37,067 bases of DNA from Flavobacteriales bacterium (lineage in GTDB: Bacteria; Bacteroidota; Bacteroidia; Flavobacteriales_D; Crocinitomicaceae). The stretch covers positions 1 through 37,067 of the forward strand of contig CANGLG010000002.1 in NCBI GenBank assembly GCA_947454395.1, read 5' to 3'. Under the pieces are notes generated by a model, which saw only the letters and a program-made list of their open reading frames with translations, was not told where the DNA came from and ran no database searches. Positions 22,516 to 28,446 of the stretch are shown piece after piece; within the stretch, counting starts at the first letter, position 1, and each line of letters opens with the position of its first letter. The position numbers were made by a program, and so were the translations under genes.

Positions 22516-22955
22516 TTTCAATAAGACAAGCAGTTCCTGGTGATGAAAAAGCAATTTTTTATTTAATTAAAGAATTGGCACTTTTTGAAAAAGCTCCGGA
22601 ACAAGTAACAAATACAGCATCCCAACTTGCAAAGGATTTATTTGAAGATTGCATTTGCGAAGCGATCGTTTCAGAATTGAATAATGAAATTGTCGGTTTT
22701 GCACTCTATTACACGTCTTATTCTACATGGAAAGGAAGATGCCTTTATCTAGAGGACTTTTATGTCAAAGAAGAGCATCGGAATAAAGGAATTGGCAGCC
22801 TACTTTTTGACAAAGTTGTTCAGATCGCCAAGGAAAAAGGGGTTAAAAGAATGGATTGGCAAGTTTTGGAGTGGAATAAAACTGCTATTGATTTTTATAC
22901 CGCAAGAAAGGCAATTCTAGATCCTGAATGGATAAATGGCAGGTATTTTTTCTAA
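22512..22955 (+). CDS. GNAT-family N-acetyltransferase (SAT1/diamine acetyltransferase-like)
   Basis: 147 aa; IRQAVPGDEKAI, LYLEDFYVKEEHRNKGIGSLLFDKV (acetyl-CoA site), WQVLEWNKTAIDFY; ATGA overlap with the sprA stop. Confidence 0.88.
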   Translation: MISIRQAVPGDEKAIFYLIKELALFEKAPEQVTNTASQLAKDLFEDCICEAIVSELNNEIVGFALYYTSYSTWKGRCLYLEDFYVKEEHRNKGIGSLLFDKVVQIAKEKGVKRMDWQVLEWNKTAIDFYTARKAILDPEWINGRYFF

Positions 22956-22990
22956 ACAAGTTTTCGCTTAAATAGGCAACTAACTACAAG

Positions 22991-23560
22991 TTGAAAACAG
23001 AAATAAATATTGAAGCGCTAAAGTCTCAAGATTCAAAAGAGTTTGAACTTTTTGTAACTCAATATGAAAAATCCATTTTCAATATGGCTATTTATTTACT
23101 TCAAAATAAACAAGAGGCAGAAGATGCAACACAGGAGATTTTTATGTCAATTTACCAGTCAATTGTATTTTTCAAAGGAGATTCTTTACTTTCAACTTGG
23201 GTCTATCGAATAACGATAAACAAATGCCGTGAAATTATCCGTCACAAAGGCAGAAAAAAACGATTTGGTATACATAAAGAAATGAATGATACAACTACTT
23301 TTCAATTGCCTTCTGAGAATAAAAATCCTGAAGAAATTTTAGCTTCAAACGAGAGAATTCAAACACTAATGTCTGCAATAAATGCTTTACCTGAAACTCA
23401 GAAAATAGCATATACTCTTCATAATATGGAAGACTTTAGTTATAAAGAAATTGCGGAAATGATGCAGCTTTCATTATCAGCCATCGAATCATTGATATTC
23501 AGAGCAAAGCAAAATTTGAAAAAAACCCTTTTAAGTTATTATCAAAATAATGAGCAATAA
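22991..23560 (+). CDS. ECF-type RNA polymerase sigma factor
   Basis: 189 aa, TTG start; sigma-2 region (YLLQNKQEAEDATQEIFMSIYQSIVFFKGDSLLSTWVYRITINKC), sigma-4 (INALPETQKIAYTLHNMEDFSYKEIAEMMQLSLSAIESLIFRAKQNLKK). Confidence 0.93.
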   Translation: MKTEINIEALKSQDSKEFELFVTQYEKSIFNMAIYLLQNKQEAEDATQEIFMSIYQSIVFFKGDSLLSTWVYRITINKCREIIRHKGRKKRFGIHKEMNDTTTFQLPSENKNPEEILASNERIQTLMSAINALPETQKIAYTLHNMEDFSYKEIAEMMQLSLSAIESLIFRAKQNLKKTLLSYYQNNEQ

Positions 23561-23568
23561 GCAAGAAA

Positions 23569-23856
23569 ATGAAATATTCATCATCTGAAAATAATATGCA
23601 AGAGAATCCATTTTTTGAAGAACTTTTAAATTTGAAATTTCAAGAGCGGTTTGAAGTTTCTGAAGACATGCACCTGCGTTTTTTACCAAACAACCATTTG
23701 AAAAAAAATAAATTCAATAGCATCTTGATTGCTGCAGCAGGAATTCTCTTGCTGATTTGCATTAATTTATTATCAATTCATCATTACAAAAAACAACTTG
23801 TTAAGGAAGAATTAAAAGAAACCTACAGCTATAATTGGAATAACTTAAATTTATAA
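23569..23856 (+). CDS. Single-TM small protein, putative anti-sigma factor
   Basis: 95 aa; charged N-terminal part, one TM (SILIAAAGILLLICINLLSI), short C-terminal tail; 8 bp after the sigma gene. Confidence 0.65.
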   Translation: MKYSSSENNMQENPFFEELLNLKFQERFEVSEDMHLRFLPNNHLKKNKFNSILIAAAGILLLICINLLSIHHYKKQLVKEELKETYSYNWNNLNL

Positions 23857-23858
23857 CG

Positions 23859-24290
23859 ATGAAAGGAAAAATCTCGAAGTACATAATTGTTTTATTAATT
23901 ACATTGAATTTGGTTAGTCTGTTTTTTTTATTGAAACCTCATAGACCAAATCCTCCAAAACTTACAGATGTAATTGTATTTGATGAACCAGTTAAATCAA
24001 AAATTAATGAAATGGAAAAGATTCATTTTTATCAAATGAAATTCTACATGAAAAAAATACAAGCCATTCGGAGTAAAATCTATTCGAAACATTTAGAAAA
24101 TTTAGACAAAATAGATTACGAATCTTATTTTAATGATATTGCAGAATACACTAAAAAAATTGAGAAATTGCGTTTTCAGTATTTTTTAGAAATAAGAAAT
24201 CTATGCAATGAGAAACAAAAAGACGAATTGGATTTATTTATTCAACATATGATTGAACACGAATCTATGCGAAGAACAAAAGGGAAATGA
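23859..24290 (+). CDS. Membrane-anchored periplasmic helical protein, candidate heavy-metal sensor (CnrX/Spy/ZraP-like)
   Basis: 143 aa; N-terminal TM anchor (YIIVLLITLNLVSLFFLL), helical periplasmic part with His/Met clusters (EKIHFYQMKFYMKKI; FIQHMIEHESM), placed behind sigma/anti-sigma. Confidence 0.6.
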   Translation: MKGKISKYIIVLLITLNLVSLFFLLKPHRPNPPKLTDVIVFDEPVKSKINEMEKIHFYQMKFYMKKIQAIRSKIYSKHLENLDKIDYESYFNDIAEYTKKIEKLRFQYFLEIRNLCNEKQKDELDLFIQHMIEHESMRRTKGK

Positions 24291-24937
24291 AATTTTTATT
24301 GATACCTATTTTTATTTTTTTTAACTTCAATCTGTTTGCTCAGTTACATTTTCAATTTTGTTGGGGAACGGAACCCATTGTAAATTCAAAAAAATATGTC
24401 TTGAATGAAAAAGACTCTATAAGCTTTTCCGAATTGAAATTATACCTCTCCAACTTCATCATAAAATCGAAAGACGTAGCTTTAGAAATCAATGAAATTG
24501 ACCTCATCGAAAATGACAATGAAGAATCTAAAATAATTCTTGATTCAATTCAAGTAACAAATTTCAACACACTAATTTTTACCTTTGGACTTGACAGCAG
24601 CACAAACACATCTGGAATATTAACAGAGGATTTAGATCCAGTTAACGGAATGTATTGGGCTTGGAACAGTGGTTATATTCATTTAAGAATGATTGGGAAT
24701 TCCAGTATAATTAACACAAGTAAAGAGCTATTCCAGTACCACTTAGGCGGATATCGCAATCCTAATCAAACGAACTTTCCAGTTTCTGTTTCAATTAAAG
24801 GAAATATTCTAAAATTTGATTTGAAACCAATTTTCACAAATCATATACAACTTGACAAAAAAAATAATTTAATGATTCCAGGAAAGGAGGCTCATGAGAT
24901 ATCAAAATTTGCGGCTTCCTTATTTAGTACAGAATGA
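24287..24937 (+). CDS. MbnP-like protein (putative copper-binding partner of a MauG/MbnH-type peroxidase)
   Basis: 216 aa; signal peptide MKFLLIPIFIFFNFNLFAQ; pattern LYLSNF...ITFxxGLDSSTN...LDPVNGMYWAWNSGYIHLRMIG...YHLGGY as in MbnP family; ATGA overlaps with both neighbours. Confidence 0.78.
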   Translation: MKFLLIPIFIFFNFNLFAQLHFQFCWGTEPIVNSKKYVLNEKDSISFSELKLYLSNFIIKSKDVALEINEIDLIENDNEESKIILDSIQVTNFNTLIFTFGLDSSTNTSGILTEDLDPVNGMYWAWNSGYIHLRMIGNSSIINTSKELFQYHLGGYRNPNQTNFPVSVSIKGNILKFDLKPIFTNHIQLDKKNNLMIPGKEAHEISKFAASLFSTE

Positions 24938-25971
24938 AAAATAAAATTTTACTTTCAGCGTGTCTTCTATTCTTAGGGCTTTTTAGCTTTATAAAAGTGG
25001 AAGTTTTACCGTTTTACATTCCTGAAGGTTGGCCTAAACCAATTTATAATTTCAGTGAAAATAAGCTTTCATCTGAAAAATTCAAACTTGGACGAACGCT
25101 TTTTTATGACGCTGATCTTTCTCGCGATAGCACAATATCATGTGCAAGTTGTCATCTTCAATTTTCAGGATTCACGCATATCGACCATGCTTTGAGCCAT
25201 GGAATCGATGGACAGATAGGCACAAGAAATTCTCCTGTTCTCATTAATTTGGCTTGGAATAAATTTTTCCATTGGGATGGAGGAGCTGGAAATCTAAATC
25301 AGCAAGCAATAAATCCGCTTACACATCCAAAAGAAATGGATAACAATCTGAAAGAAATTCTCCGAAGATTGAATCAATCGAACTTTTACAAAAATAAATT
25401 TTTCGCAGCCTTTGGTGATTCAGTTATTACTACTGATAGATTATTAAAATCATTGGCAAGTTTTACAGTTAGTCTTGTTTCTGCAAACTCTAAATATGAT
25501 CTTTACAAACGAGGAGAAATTGAATTCAATGAACAAGAAAAAAATGGCTATCAGCTTTTTAAAAATTACTGTTCATCATGTCACTCGGAACCTTTGTTTA
25601 AAATAGATGCTTTCAAAAACAATGGTCTTCCGATCGATTCTGATTTGAATGATTTAGGAAGAAAAACTATTACTGAAAAAGAAAATGACAATCTCCAATT
25701 CAAAGTTCCAACTTTAAGAAACATTGAATTCAGTTTTCCATACATGCATGACGGGCGATTTAAAAAATTGAAAGAAGTTATTAATCATTACAGTGAGCTT
25801 CATAAATCTGACATAGAATATAGCAAGGAATTAAAAAAAATTAAAAAACCAATGAGTGAAAGTCAGCAAAAAGACCTAATTTCATTTCTTAAAACACTAA
25901 GCGACAAAGATTTTCTGTACAATCCTGTTTTTATGTATCCAAAAAATGAAAGGATTGAACAAGAAGAATGA
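24934..25971 (+). CDS. Diheme cytochrome c peroxidase / MauG-MbnH-family protein
   Basis: 345 aa; two CxxCH motifs (CASCH 25141-25155; CSSCH 25570-25584), LGRTLFYDADLSRDSTISCASCH, FFHWDGGAGNLNQQAINPL, PYMHDGRFKKLKEVINHY. Confidence 0.92.
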   Translation: MKNKILLSACLLFLGLFSFIKVEVLPFYIPEGWPKPIYNFSENKLSSEKFKLGRTLFYDADLSRDSTISCASCHLQFSGFTHIDHALSHGIDGQIGTRNSPVLINLAWNKFFHWDGGAGNLNQQAINPLTHPKEMDNNLKEILRRLNQSNFYKNKFFAAFGDSVITTDRLLKSLASFTVSLVSANSKYDLYKRGEIEFNEQEKNGYQLFKNYCSSCHSEPLFKIDAFKNNGLPIDSDLNDLGRKTITEKENDNLQFKVPTLRNIEFSFPYMHDGRFKKLKEVINHYSELHKSDIEYSKELKKIKKPMSESQQKDLISFLKTLSDKDFLYNPVFMYPKNERIEQEE

Positions 25972-25998
25972 AAATTTAGTCTCTAATAAAAAAAATCA

Positions 25999-27363
25999 AT
26001 GCTTATGAAAAGAATTTTATTGTCATTCACGTTGTTATCTGCAACATGTAATGCTTTTTCTCAATTAAACCCGGGAATTACATCTTGGTTGCAAAATAAC
26101 ACGGCAACTGGTAGTTATTACGTCTCTGGAAATTCAACTGCGATTCCAAATAATATTTTAGTCAATTGTCAATCCGTTCAATACTCAACGAACTGGGTTT
26201 ACGTAACAACAACTGGTGTTCCGGCGTATGTTACCGGTCCATTTTTAGATGGGAATCCTTCGCAAACTCAAAATCAGAATGCAATTTTCAAAATTCCTTT
26301 GAACCCAACTCAAAATACAGGAACCCTTACCTCAACTACAGGAGGAAATATTGGAATCTTCATAAATGGAGTTGCTCTTTTTGACTACCGAGATGGTGTT
26401 GCATGGAATACAAGCACTAATTCTCTTTGTGGAGGGTTACCTGGAATGTCTCCATGTCCTGGAGGGCCTGGTACATCACAGTCTTGGAATAGAGATGCAG
26501 TTCGTGCTGAAAAAGCTGGTTTTGACTGTGCGAAAGGACATCCTGCAAATGGAAACTACCACCACCATCAAAACCCAAGTGCTTACAAACTTGATTTAAG
26601 TGTAATTTCAACAGTTTGTAATCTATATGATGCAGATGGTCTTTATGCGATTGACTCAACAATACATTCACCATTAATTGGATTTTCTTATGACGGGTTC
26701 CCAATTTACGGAGCATATGGATATAAAAATGCCGATGGGACTGGAGGAATTACAAGAATAAAATCGGGTTATCAGTATAGAAATATTACAGATAGAACTG
26801 TTTGGGCAGATGGAACGGATGTATCAGATGGACCTTCCGATTTCACAACTTACCCATTGGGATATTTCAGAGAAGACTATGAATTTGTTTCTCATGCGGG
26901 ACAAGAAGATTACTTGGATGCTCACAATGGTCGATTCTGTGTGACACCTGAATATCCAAATGGTATCTATTGTTATTTTGCAACAGTGGATGAAAATTGG
27001 AACTCGGCTTATCCATATGCTGTTGGACCCTATTTTTATGGTGTAAAAACAGCAGCAAAAGTTACTAGTATTACTGAGACAGTAACAACCTATACATCTC
27101 CTACTTCAGGATTGGGCGAAATAGATGATTTGAATTTATCAGTATTTCCTAATCCAGCAAATGAGCTTTTAATCCTTCAAGTGAATGGCCTTAATAAAAA
27201 AGACATTGAAGTAGAGTTGTTTGACATTACAGGGAAATTAGTAGGGAAACAAAGAATTCTGCAAGGAAGTACATTAACTTATTTTGATGTTTCAACGCTG
27301 TACTCAGGCATTTACTTTTTGAAAGCTGAAAATAAAACATTTGAAGTAAAGATTGGTAAATAA
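25999..27363 (+). CDS. YHYH-domain secreted protein with T9SS type A C-terminal sorting domain
   Basis: 454 aa; signal peptide, GNYHHHQNP (26557-26568 = YHHH), LIGFSYDGFPIYGAYGY, YFREDYEFV..LDAHNGRFCVTPEYPNGIYCYFAT, and C-terminal LSVFPNPANELLILQV...YSGIYFLKAE sorting tail. Confidence 0.85.
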   Translation: MLMKRILLSFTLLSATCNAFSQLNPGITSWLQNNTATGSYYVSGNSTAIPNNILVNCQSVQYSTNWVYVTTTGVPAYVTGPFLDGNPSQTQNQNAIFKIPLNPTQNTGTLTSTTGGNIGIFINGVALFDYRDGVAWNTSTNSLCGGLPGMSPCPGGPGTSQSWNRDAVRAEKAGFDCAKGHPANGNYHHHQNPSAYKLDLSVISTVCNLYDADGLYAIDSTIHSPLIGFSYDGFPIYGAYGYKNADGTGGITRIKSGYQYRNITDRTVWADGTDVSDGPSDFTTYPLGYFREDYEFVSHAGQEDYLDAHNGRFCVTPEYPNGIYCYFATVDENWNSAYPYAVGPYFYGVKTAAKVTSITETVTTYTSPTSGLGEIDDLNLSVFPNPANELLILQVNGLNKKDIEVELFDITGKLVGKQRILQGSTLTYFDVSTLYSGIYFLKAENKTFEVKIGK

Positions 27364-27497: not shown

Positions 27498-27622
27498 TAG
27501 GACACTTCTTATGTTATTAAGTTGATTTGCTGCTTGGAGAGGCAGTTTCATTTTCTAGTTTGATAAGAGTTTTATAGTTTTTAATCAACGCCCTCAAAAA
27601 GGATAATACATAAGAAGTTCCT
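27498..27622 (+). ncRNA. Candidate structured RNA: 19-bp closing stem, 7-bp internal stem and 6-bp GGAG-loop hairpin (6S-like shape, identity unproven)
   Basis: 27499-27519 (AGGAcACTTCTTATGTtATTA) pairs with 27604-27622 (TAATACATAAGAAGTTCCT) with two 1-nt bulges; inside GTTGATT (27521-27527)/AATCAAC (27583-27589) and CTGCTT-GGAG-AGGCAG (27530-27545). No supporting ORF. The strand is inferred. Confidence 0.5.
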
Positions 27623-27680: not shown

Positions 27681-27710
27681 AAAGGGCTATTACGGCCCTT
27701 TATTTATTTT
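27681..27710 (+). terminator. Rho-independent terminator between the YHYH/ncRNA region and the convergent cyclase gene
   Basis: AAAGGGC-TATTACG-GCCCTTT followed by ATTTATTTT; overlaps the stop of the minus-strand cyclase. Confidence 0.6.
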
Positions 27711-28446
27711 CTATCTTATACAAAACTGGTCTACTCGGACTTGCATCATTTTCAAAAGGAGCTACTTGTAATTCTAAAATATAGTTCCCATCTTCAATTT
27801 GTGAGTCTACGAATATTAACTCCGTAATTGTTCTATTGAAATTAGGATTTCTTGGAACTTCCCAAAAAGCATGATGAAATGCAAGTGCACCTCCGTCAGA
27901 TTCCCTATCAACCGAGGGCAAGTCGATTAATAAATGATCAACTTTTAATTCATTTAACAATTCAATCACCGAAAGATCAATATAGGCAGGATTCGAATTA
28001 GAAAAATCTTTTGCTGTTTTATCTGAATTATTAGGAAGAGTTCGAATAATAATTGCCTCCGAAAATTCAGAATCAATCTTCCCTTTAAAATGAGATGGGA
28101 AAATAACAGAATCGCCATTGCCAATTAAATCCGGTTCAACAGTAATTAATGTTGCTTTAAAAAAATATTTTTTTAAGTGTTGATTTACTGAAAAAACTTC
28201 TTTGGTGATGTGACCGCAACATTCCGTGTGCGTACCATGTCCATGTGGATTAAAGAAAATATTTCTAAAGTTCACAGTTCCTCCTTCTGCAACACTACCT
28301 AAAAAGCCATTGGCCCGAACGGGCTCAAATTTTGGGGGATCTACATACCACGCGCGGAGATTTTCTTCCCCAGAGCGTAACCCAATAGAAATATCCAAAG
28401 GATTATTTGTCTCTATATAATTGTTGTTATCGATAAAAAAGCGCAT
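27700..28446 (-). CDS. Cyclase-family protein (kynurenine formamidase/KynB-like fold)
   Basis: 248 aa; PLDISIGLRSGEENLRAWYVDPP, metal-site motif HGHGTHTECCGHI, HLLIDLPSVDRESDGGALAFHHAFW; no signal peptide. Confidence 0.85.
   Translation of the reverse strand: MRFFIDNNNYIETNNPLDISIGLRSGEENLRAWYVDPPKFEPVRANGFLGSVAEGGTVNFRNIFFNPHGHGTHTECCGHITKEVFSVNQHLKKYFFKATLITVEPDLIGNGDSVIFPSHFKGKIDSEFSEAIIIRTLPNNSDKTAKDFSNSNPAYIDLSVIELLNELKVDHLLIDLPSVDRESDGGALAFHHAFWEVPRNPNFNRTITELIFVDSQIEDGNYILELQVAPFENDASPSRPVLYKIENK

Follow-up and report, generated by a model that had tools for sequence, protein, structure and literature searches.

The 37,067-nucleotide window analyzed here (contig CANGLG010000002.1, positions 1 to 37,067, of assembly GCA_947454395.1) comes from a Flavobacteriales bacterium of the family Crocinitomicaceae and carries a block of six forward-strand genes at positions 22991-27363, hereafter the cassette. 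In it, a predicted regulatory trio is followed by genes for MbnP, a diheme enzyme resembling MbnH, and a YHYH protein. The intergenic gaps are 8, 2, -4, -4 and 27 bp, and the ATGA overlaps at 24287-24290 (sensor/MbnP) and 24934-24937 (MbnP/MbnH) were verified, which agrees with the same-strand, six-gene block with two overlaps described in the original prediction. The six genes are:

22991..23560, + strand: extracytoplasmic function (ECF) sigma factor with a predicted CnrH-like role; 189 amino acids (aa), TTG start; Pfam Sigma70_r2 3.8e-11, Sigma70_r4_2 1.1e-16
23569..23856, + strand: protein with one transmembrane (TM) segment, putative anti-sigma factor with a CnrY-like role; 95 aa; cytoplasmic N-terminus, TM segment, periplasmic tail of ~20 residues
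23859..24290, + strand: putative membrane-anchored periplasmic sensor; 143 aa; CnrX/Spy-type helical hook in the predicted model; conserved H56, H/Y108 and C116
24287..24937, + strand: MbnP; 216 aa; Sec-type signal peptide; PF20243; N-G-M122-Y-W124-A-W126-N and H152
24934..25971, + strand: MbnH-like diheme enzyme; 345 aa; PF03150; heme motifs CASCH (70-74) and CSSCH (213-217), Trp114, axial-type Tyr286
25999..27363, + strand: YHYH protein with a type 9 secretion system (T9SS) type A sorting tail; 454 aa; PF14240 5.4e-57, PF18962 (Por_Secre_tail) 4e-13

The ECF gene was assigned the TTG start at 22991; an in-frame TAG lies immediately upstream, with no alternative start codon ahead of the conserved part. 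Profile hidden Markov model searches matched MbnP, CCP_MauG, YHYH and Por_Secre_tail, in line with the gene identities proposed earlier, and the assignment of 24287-24937 to MbnP is clear (PF20243, 6.5e-33, 114.7 bits against a cut-off of 27). The TM protein and the sensor of this strain produced no credible match in Pfam or NCBIfam. The original prediction had seen no methanobactin genes; likewise, a search of the genome that holds the window, in an assembly 86% complete, gave no MbnB homologue (PF05114).

The gene order is not peculiar to this strain. Searching with MbnP as the only query brought up 44 named loci, 30 of which had enough DNA on both sides, and the full order of ECF, TM protein, sensor, MbnP, MbnH and YHYH was present in 22 of these 30. 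When the YHYH profile was run on 120 genomes of the same family, about 40 strong matches were obtained, and the six-gene order was found in 26 of the 31 covered family loci. After eight contigs seen twice were dropped, 42 loci including the window share the arrangement; in two of them (L059 and L070) a pair of additional genes separates MbnP from MbnH. These loci are mutually related and thus do not represent 42 independent events; the recurrence of the order in loci fetched by MbnP alone, and in the family loci fetched with YHYH, indicates an arrangement beyond chance. Outside the family the block is rarer, and a strong YHYH match was found in only 9 of the 395 genomes of a phylum sample, the window's own genome counted. 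A locus from another family of the order (L157) has ECF, sensor, MbnP, MbnH and YHYH, one locus of the phylum sample (L150) has the trio with MbnP-MbnH-YHYH, and farther out in that sample MbnP-MbnH-YHYH blocks occur without the trio.

At Crocinitomicaceae-type loci the cassette is flanked by a GNAT gene on one side and by a pair of genes for a cyclase and glycyl-tRNA synthetase (GlyRS) on the other; at other loci it stands behind a different housekeeping-like gene set or elsewhere. Three genomes of the same genus that lack the cassette (G022, G053 and G065) have a GNAT-cyclase spacing of about 330 bp, compared with 4744 bp. These empty sites, together with the several chromosomal contexts, suggest that the block has been gained or lost as a unit. 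The cyclase gene (27700-28446, - strand), which is arylformamidase-like, was considered as a link to kynurenine metabolism and rejected because, as a syntenic flank, it remains beside GlyRS where the cassette is absent and does not accompany the cassette in other contexts. An inverted repeat downstream of YHYH (27504-27514 / 27608-27618) was also rejected as a mobile-element end, as no second copy is present in the genome.

Partial versions of the cassette were also observed. In four loci (L114, L116, L133 and L137; L116 is cut before the ECF gene) the trio is followed directly by YHYH, without MbnP or MbnH, and in four others (L120, L121, L125 and L143) MbnP-MbnH-YHYH is present without the trio. 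In a YHYH tree the four loci of the former kind are placed separately among six-gene loci, suggesting that MbnP and MbnH were lost at least two times while YHYH was retained.

The regulatory trio resembles the CnrYXH and NccYXH systems of Cupriavidus metallidurans, in which an ECF sigma factor, a small membrane anti-sigma factor and a periplasmic helical-hook sensor are encoded together. The predicted sensor model (predicted local distance difference test score, pLDDT, of 89.6) has a TM helix at its N-terminus and, beyond it, a helical hook, and in a Foldseek comparison with the PDB ranks 1-15 were all CnrX or NccX at a probability of 1.00, with TM-scores by target of up to 0.78 and E-values of 0.013-0.16. 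CnrX also headed the list obtained with VIA-align, at a Z of 11.1 and with the whole periplasmic domain covered, in a method where helical proteins or bundles may reach middling scores through a common arrangement. A profile of the sensor homologues searched against the PDB returned NccX, CnrR and Spy among its best matches, all weak, and Pfam Metal_resist matched 11 of 27 homologues. Given that the predicted fold is that of CnrX and NccX, we regard the trio as CnrYXH-like. The proposal of a separate ECF/anti-sigma/sensor module is therefore supported, and the protein named as its sensor is modeled with a fold of the metal-sensor type. In ECF-bearing relatives the putative anti-sigma factor occupies the same place in the gene order, is of the same size and is likewise built from a short cytoplasmic part, a single TM segment and a short periplasmic tail. 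C116 of the sensor is conserved in 27 of 27 homologues, H56 in 25 of 27, and His or Tyr at position 108 in 26 of 27; these residues form a candidate site different from, and softer than, that of CnrX, the metal ligands of which are H42, H46, E63, H119 and M123. Unlike in the Cupriavidus systems, the gene order here is sigma/anti-sigma/sensor, most residues of the Ni site are not conserved, and MbnP-MbnH-YHYH takes the place of an RND (resistance-nodulation-division) efflux pump as the output.

The known precedents for MbnP and MbnH are copper-linked. In Methylosinus trichosporium OB3b, MbnH converts the first Trp of a WxW motif in MbnP into kynurenine, and the site also has a His and a Met, which serve as Cu(I) ligands in the published MbnP structure. 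The protein studied here shares with that system its MbnP Pfam family, the WxW motif and an adjacent MauG-type diheme enzyme. Its NGMYWAWN motif, including W124-A-W126, and H152 are invariant in 35 of 35 MbnP homologues. Neither sequence nor profile searches of the PDB gave a match to MbnP; M122 and H152 are candidates for the Met and His ligands. MbnH matches PF03150 (CCP_MauG) at 4.1e-52 and PDB entry 6e1c at 2.8e-37, and both of its CxxCH heme sites (CASCH and CSSCH) are invariant. Y286 is invariant as well (26/26) and aligns with a Met of 3o5c and a Tyr of 6e1c. MauG differs from cytochrome c peroxidases in having Tyr as an axial ligand in place of Met or His (PMC7567364), and a Tyr at 286, where cytochrome c peroxidases have Met, is therefore a mark of a MauG-type enzyme. 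By analogy with the characterized proteins, the pair probably builds a kynurenine copper site in MbnP.

MbnP/MbnH pairs are known outside methanobactin operons (PMC3621798). The pair described here differs from those of methanotrophs in its occurrence in Bacteroidota, its own ECF module, its YHYH partner, the absence of any methanobactin gene among those found, and scores below the equivalog cut-offs. It is also comparable to CorA/CorB and MopE/SACCP, each of which combines a kynurenine copper protein with a co-transcribed diheme c-type enzyme; kynurenine copper sites have been seen in crystals of CorA and MopE (PMC3912023). In CorA two His accompany the kynurenine and expression is copper-repressed, whereas the invariant residues here are Met122, Trp124 and His152.

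YHYH belongs by a clear domain match to PF14240, a family of no assigned function; the protein here carries a T9SS export tail and is tied to an ECF metal-sensor-like module. It is the most conserved component of the cassette, with 59-80% identity across 24 homologues, compared with 26-54% for MbnP and 16-57% for the sensor at the same loci. Its own predicted model has a pLDDT of 41. Judging from sequence conservation, YHYH is most likely the most constant output of the regulon. The original prediction had placed MbnP and MbnH at the core; this conservation and the loci without MbnP/MbnH point instead to YHYH. Searches of open papers that paired YHYH with copper or with CotH, or MbnP with Bacteroidetes, returned nothing relevant. 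Larger YHYH proteins with extra BACON domains (~720-815 aa) were noted in Chlorobiota-type and other distant genomes (L049 7685-10129; L154 6422-8584).

A de novo two-block search upstream of the ECF genes of 41 non-redundant loci recovered the pattern CAAGT-N12-(TGG)CATCT with a score of 617, versus 440-457 in shuffles. The motif is at the expected place in about two thirds of the 41 ECF genes, and the more distant ECF genes are without it. Two copies were recorded in the window, for which random 130-mers give a 95th percentile of 8.8 bits and a 99th percentile of 12.0 bits:

22954..22981, + strand: ECF-type promoter-like motif AAACAAGT-N12-AGGCAACT (CAAGTTT-N11-GGCAACT), 14.9 bits, just upstream of the ECF start
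25957..25984, + strand: weak motif copy GAACAAGA-N12-TAGTCTCT upstream of YHYH, 10.2 bits, not significant alone in the window

In several relatives the copy before YHYH reaches 14-16 bits, and many relatives have a motif of 15-20 bits in the gap between the ECF and anti-sigma genes. An exact match to CAAGTTTN11RGCAWCT occurs once in the window's own assembly, at this operon; near-motifs with one mismatch were about as numerous there as matches to a reversed-pattern control, and no additional target is proposed for that genome.

A scan of the cassette genomes identified the motif ~27 bp upstream of a T9SS-tagged CotH-family gene in two genomes. Since only ECF promoters had been used to train the motif, CotH provides an outside test. 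The upstream DNA of CotH was readable in 15 cassette genomes. In 14 of these a site lies between -47 and -59, with scores from 8.3 to 23.0 bits; seven exceed 12 bits, and the lowest is close to the 95% level of random sequences. In the remaining genome, G108, a site of 10.0 bits lies at -75. In G063, G113 and G017 the ECF and CotH promoters share the variant AAAAG(A/G). No comparable site was found before CotH in the trio-free genomes G053, G022, G065 and G015 or in G046 (≤11.2 bits), and the CotH promoters of cassette-free genomes contain at most a divergent block pair within that same limit (≤11.2 bits). The CotH protein in question (CotH, LTD and a T9SS tail) is secreted and encoded far from the cassette, with the motif upstream in most cassette genomes (L182-L198). 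Several cassette genomes have a weaker site of the same type near -68 before a VTC-domain gene (L230-L242); three cassette-free genomes show no such site. We treat VTC, and a gene resembling a TonB receptor (L217), only as leads. The incomplete genome of the window itself yielded neither CotH nor VTC. As to the description of the system as self-contained, that genome has a single exact motif, at this operon; in relatives the same motif also precedes the distant CotH gene and, more weakly, VTC, and the regulon there is thus not self-contained.

Two hints bear on the metal. In L059 and L070 the genes inserted between MbnP and MbnH encode a T9SS multicopper oxidase and a redoxin (Pfam was run on L070), and in the distant locus L154 a multicopper oxidase gene directly follows YHYH. 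Multicopper oxidase genes near YHYH in two lineages are independent hints in support of copper, and the operon is probably copper-responsive. With regard to direction, CnrH is freed from the CnrYX complex once metal is present (PMC4803752). Because modules of the CnrX type release their sigma factor in the presence of metal, induction by metal excess is favored, by analogy, over scavenging. The original prediction had spoken of scavenging; the behavior of CnrX-type modules makes the handling of excess metal at least as likely.

Taken together, the data suggest a metal-responsive, probably copper-responsive, operon that works on the CnrYXH principle and combines an MbnP/MbnH kynurenine copper site with a surface YHYH protein, a reading to which we assign a probability of roughly 55%. 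Periplasmic metal would bind the membrane-anchored sensor, with H56, H/Y108 and C116 as candidate ligands, and the metal-bound sensor would loosen the one-TM anti-sigma protein and free the ECF sigma factor. The sigma factor would then recognize the CAAGTTT-N11-GGCAACT motif as a promoter and transcribe the operon that encodes it and, in many relatives, also the distant secreted CotH and possibly the VTC protein. Both MbnP and its partner enzyme would reach the periplasm as products of the operon; there MbnH, a MauG-type diheme enzyme, if it acts as its characterized homologues do, would oxidize the first Trp of the MbnP WxW to kynurenine to make a Cu(I) site. YHYH would pass to the cell surface via the T9SS, and our working guess is that it binds or shields metal there.

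Several observations weigh against this reading. At the positions of the CnrX Ni site (offset 11) the window protein has N31, L35, M52, Y108 and I112, which mostly do not keep the CnrX residues; the position matching CnrX 119 is His in 16 of 27 homologues and is the sole site residue kept in most. The sensor could therefore answer another cue. MbnP scores 33.8 bits against NCBIfam TIGR04052, under the equivalog cut-off of 140, although 32 of the 35 MbnP homologues match that model at E ≤ 0.001, and the best NCBIfam match of MbnH, TIGR04039, scores 213.3 bits, under the cut-off of 362.85. CotH and VTC are not obvious copper genes for such a regulon. Moreover, the trio occurs with YHYH in the absence of MbnP/MbnH, and MbnP-MbnH-YHYH in the absence of the trio, so the parts can work apart.

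The partial loss of the Ni ligands would fit a Spy/CpxP-like sensor that detects damage to the envelope or a metal other than copper (Ni, Co or Zn), in which case the operon would serve a general envelope response and copper would be incidental. CnrX, NccX, Spy and CpxP have one fold in common, and the inclusion of CotH, and perhaps VTC, in the regulon of relatives points the same way. The invariant C116 and near-invariant H56 do resemble metal ligands, however, and the copper-linked precedents for MbnP/MbnH and the multicopper oxidases of related cassettes argue for copper, leaving this possibility doubtful. We also consider it unlikely that the operon is switched on at copper limitation, like corA/corB and mopE of methanotrophs, with MbnP and YHYH capturing copper for uptake. 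CorA and MopE are copper-repressed, in the opposite direction to CnrX-type modules, and CorA is a characterized surface kynurenine-copper protein proposed to function in acquisition (PMC3912023); in addition, one relative has the motif before its TonB-receptor-like gene (L217). Against this, CnrX-type sensors free their sigma factor with metal present (PMC4803752), and no TonB receptor was recognized inside the cassette among the loci read.

A different assignment of roles would make YHYH, or both YHYH and MbnP, the substrate of MbnH, with MbnP as a helper. YHYH lies directly downstream of MbnH and is far better conserved than MbnP at the same loci (59-80% versus 26-54%). The WxW motif is invariant in MbnP, however, and YHYH also stands beside the trio where MbnP and MbnH are missing from the locus, though those genomes carry other MbnP copies. 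An apparent MbnH-YHYH fusion in L075 proved to be an artefact, as translation showed its two parts to be separated by a run of N. We consider this assignment improbable.

The cassette brings together parts of known kinds in a new, conserved combination; the open literature that was searched held no description of such a block, equipped with a promoter motif of its own and a small regulon. More tentatively, the cassette may belong to an undescribed surface metal-handling regulon of Bacteroidota, in which a CnrX-type sensor and an ECF sigma factor drive a T9SS-exported YHYH. In that regulon YHYH would be the core effector, and MbnP/MbnH, multicopper oxidase, VTC and secreted CotH would be partners that vary with the lineage. 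If true, this would give YHYH its first functional context, as an extracellular metal (copper) protein. The cassette provides this widespread family with a regulatory context, a promoter motif and, as candidate partners, multicopper oxidase, CotH and VTC. It also links a copper site, predicted to be built post-translationally, to a defined sensor and sigma factor, which opens the physiological cue for MbnP/MbnH to direct testing outside methanotrophs.

Other arrangements around these genes were also noted. One genus of the family has a second arrangement in which YHYH lies upstream of a different MbnP-MbnH pair (L006, L012-L014 and L023). In one genome of the same genus (G076), a bacteriorhodopsin-like gene stands between MbnH and YHYH (L123 3091-3819), and in several distant loci a sulfatase gene lies beside or near YHYH (L045 5464-6618, L152, L153 and L131).

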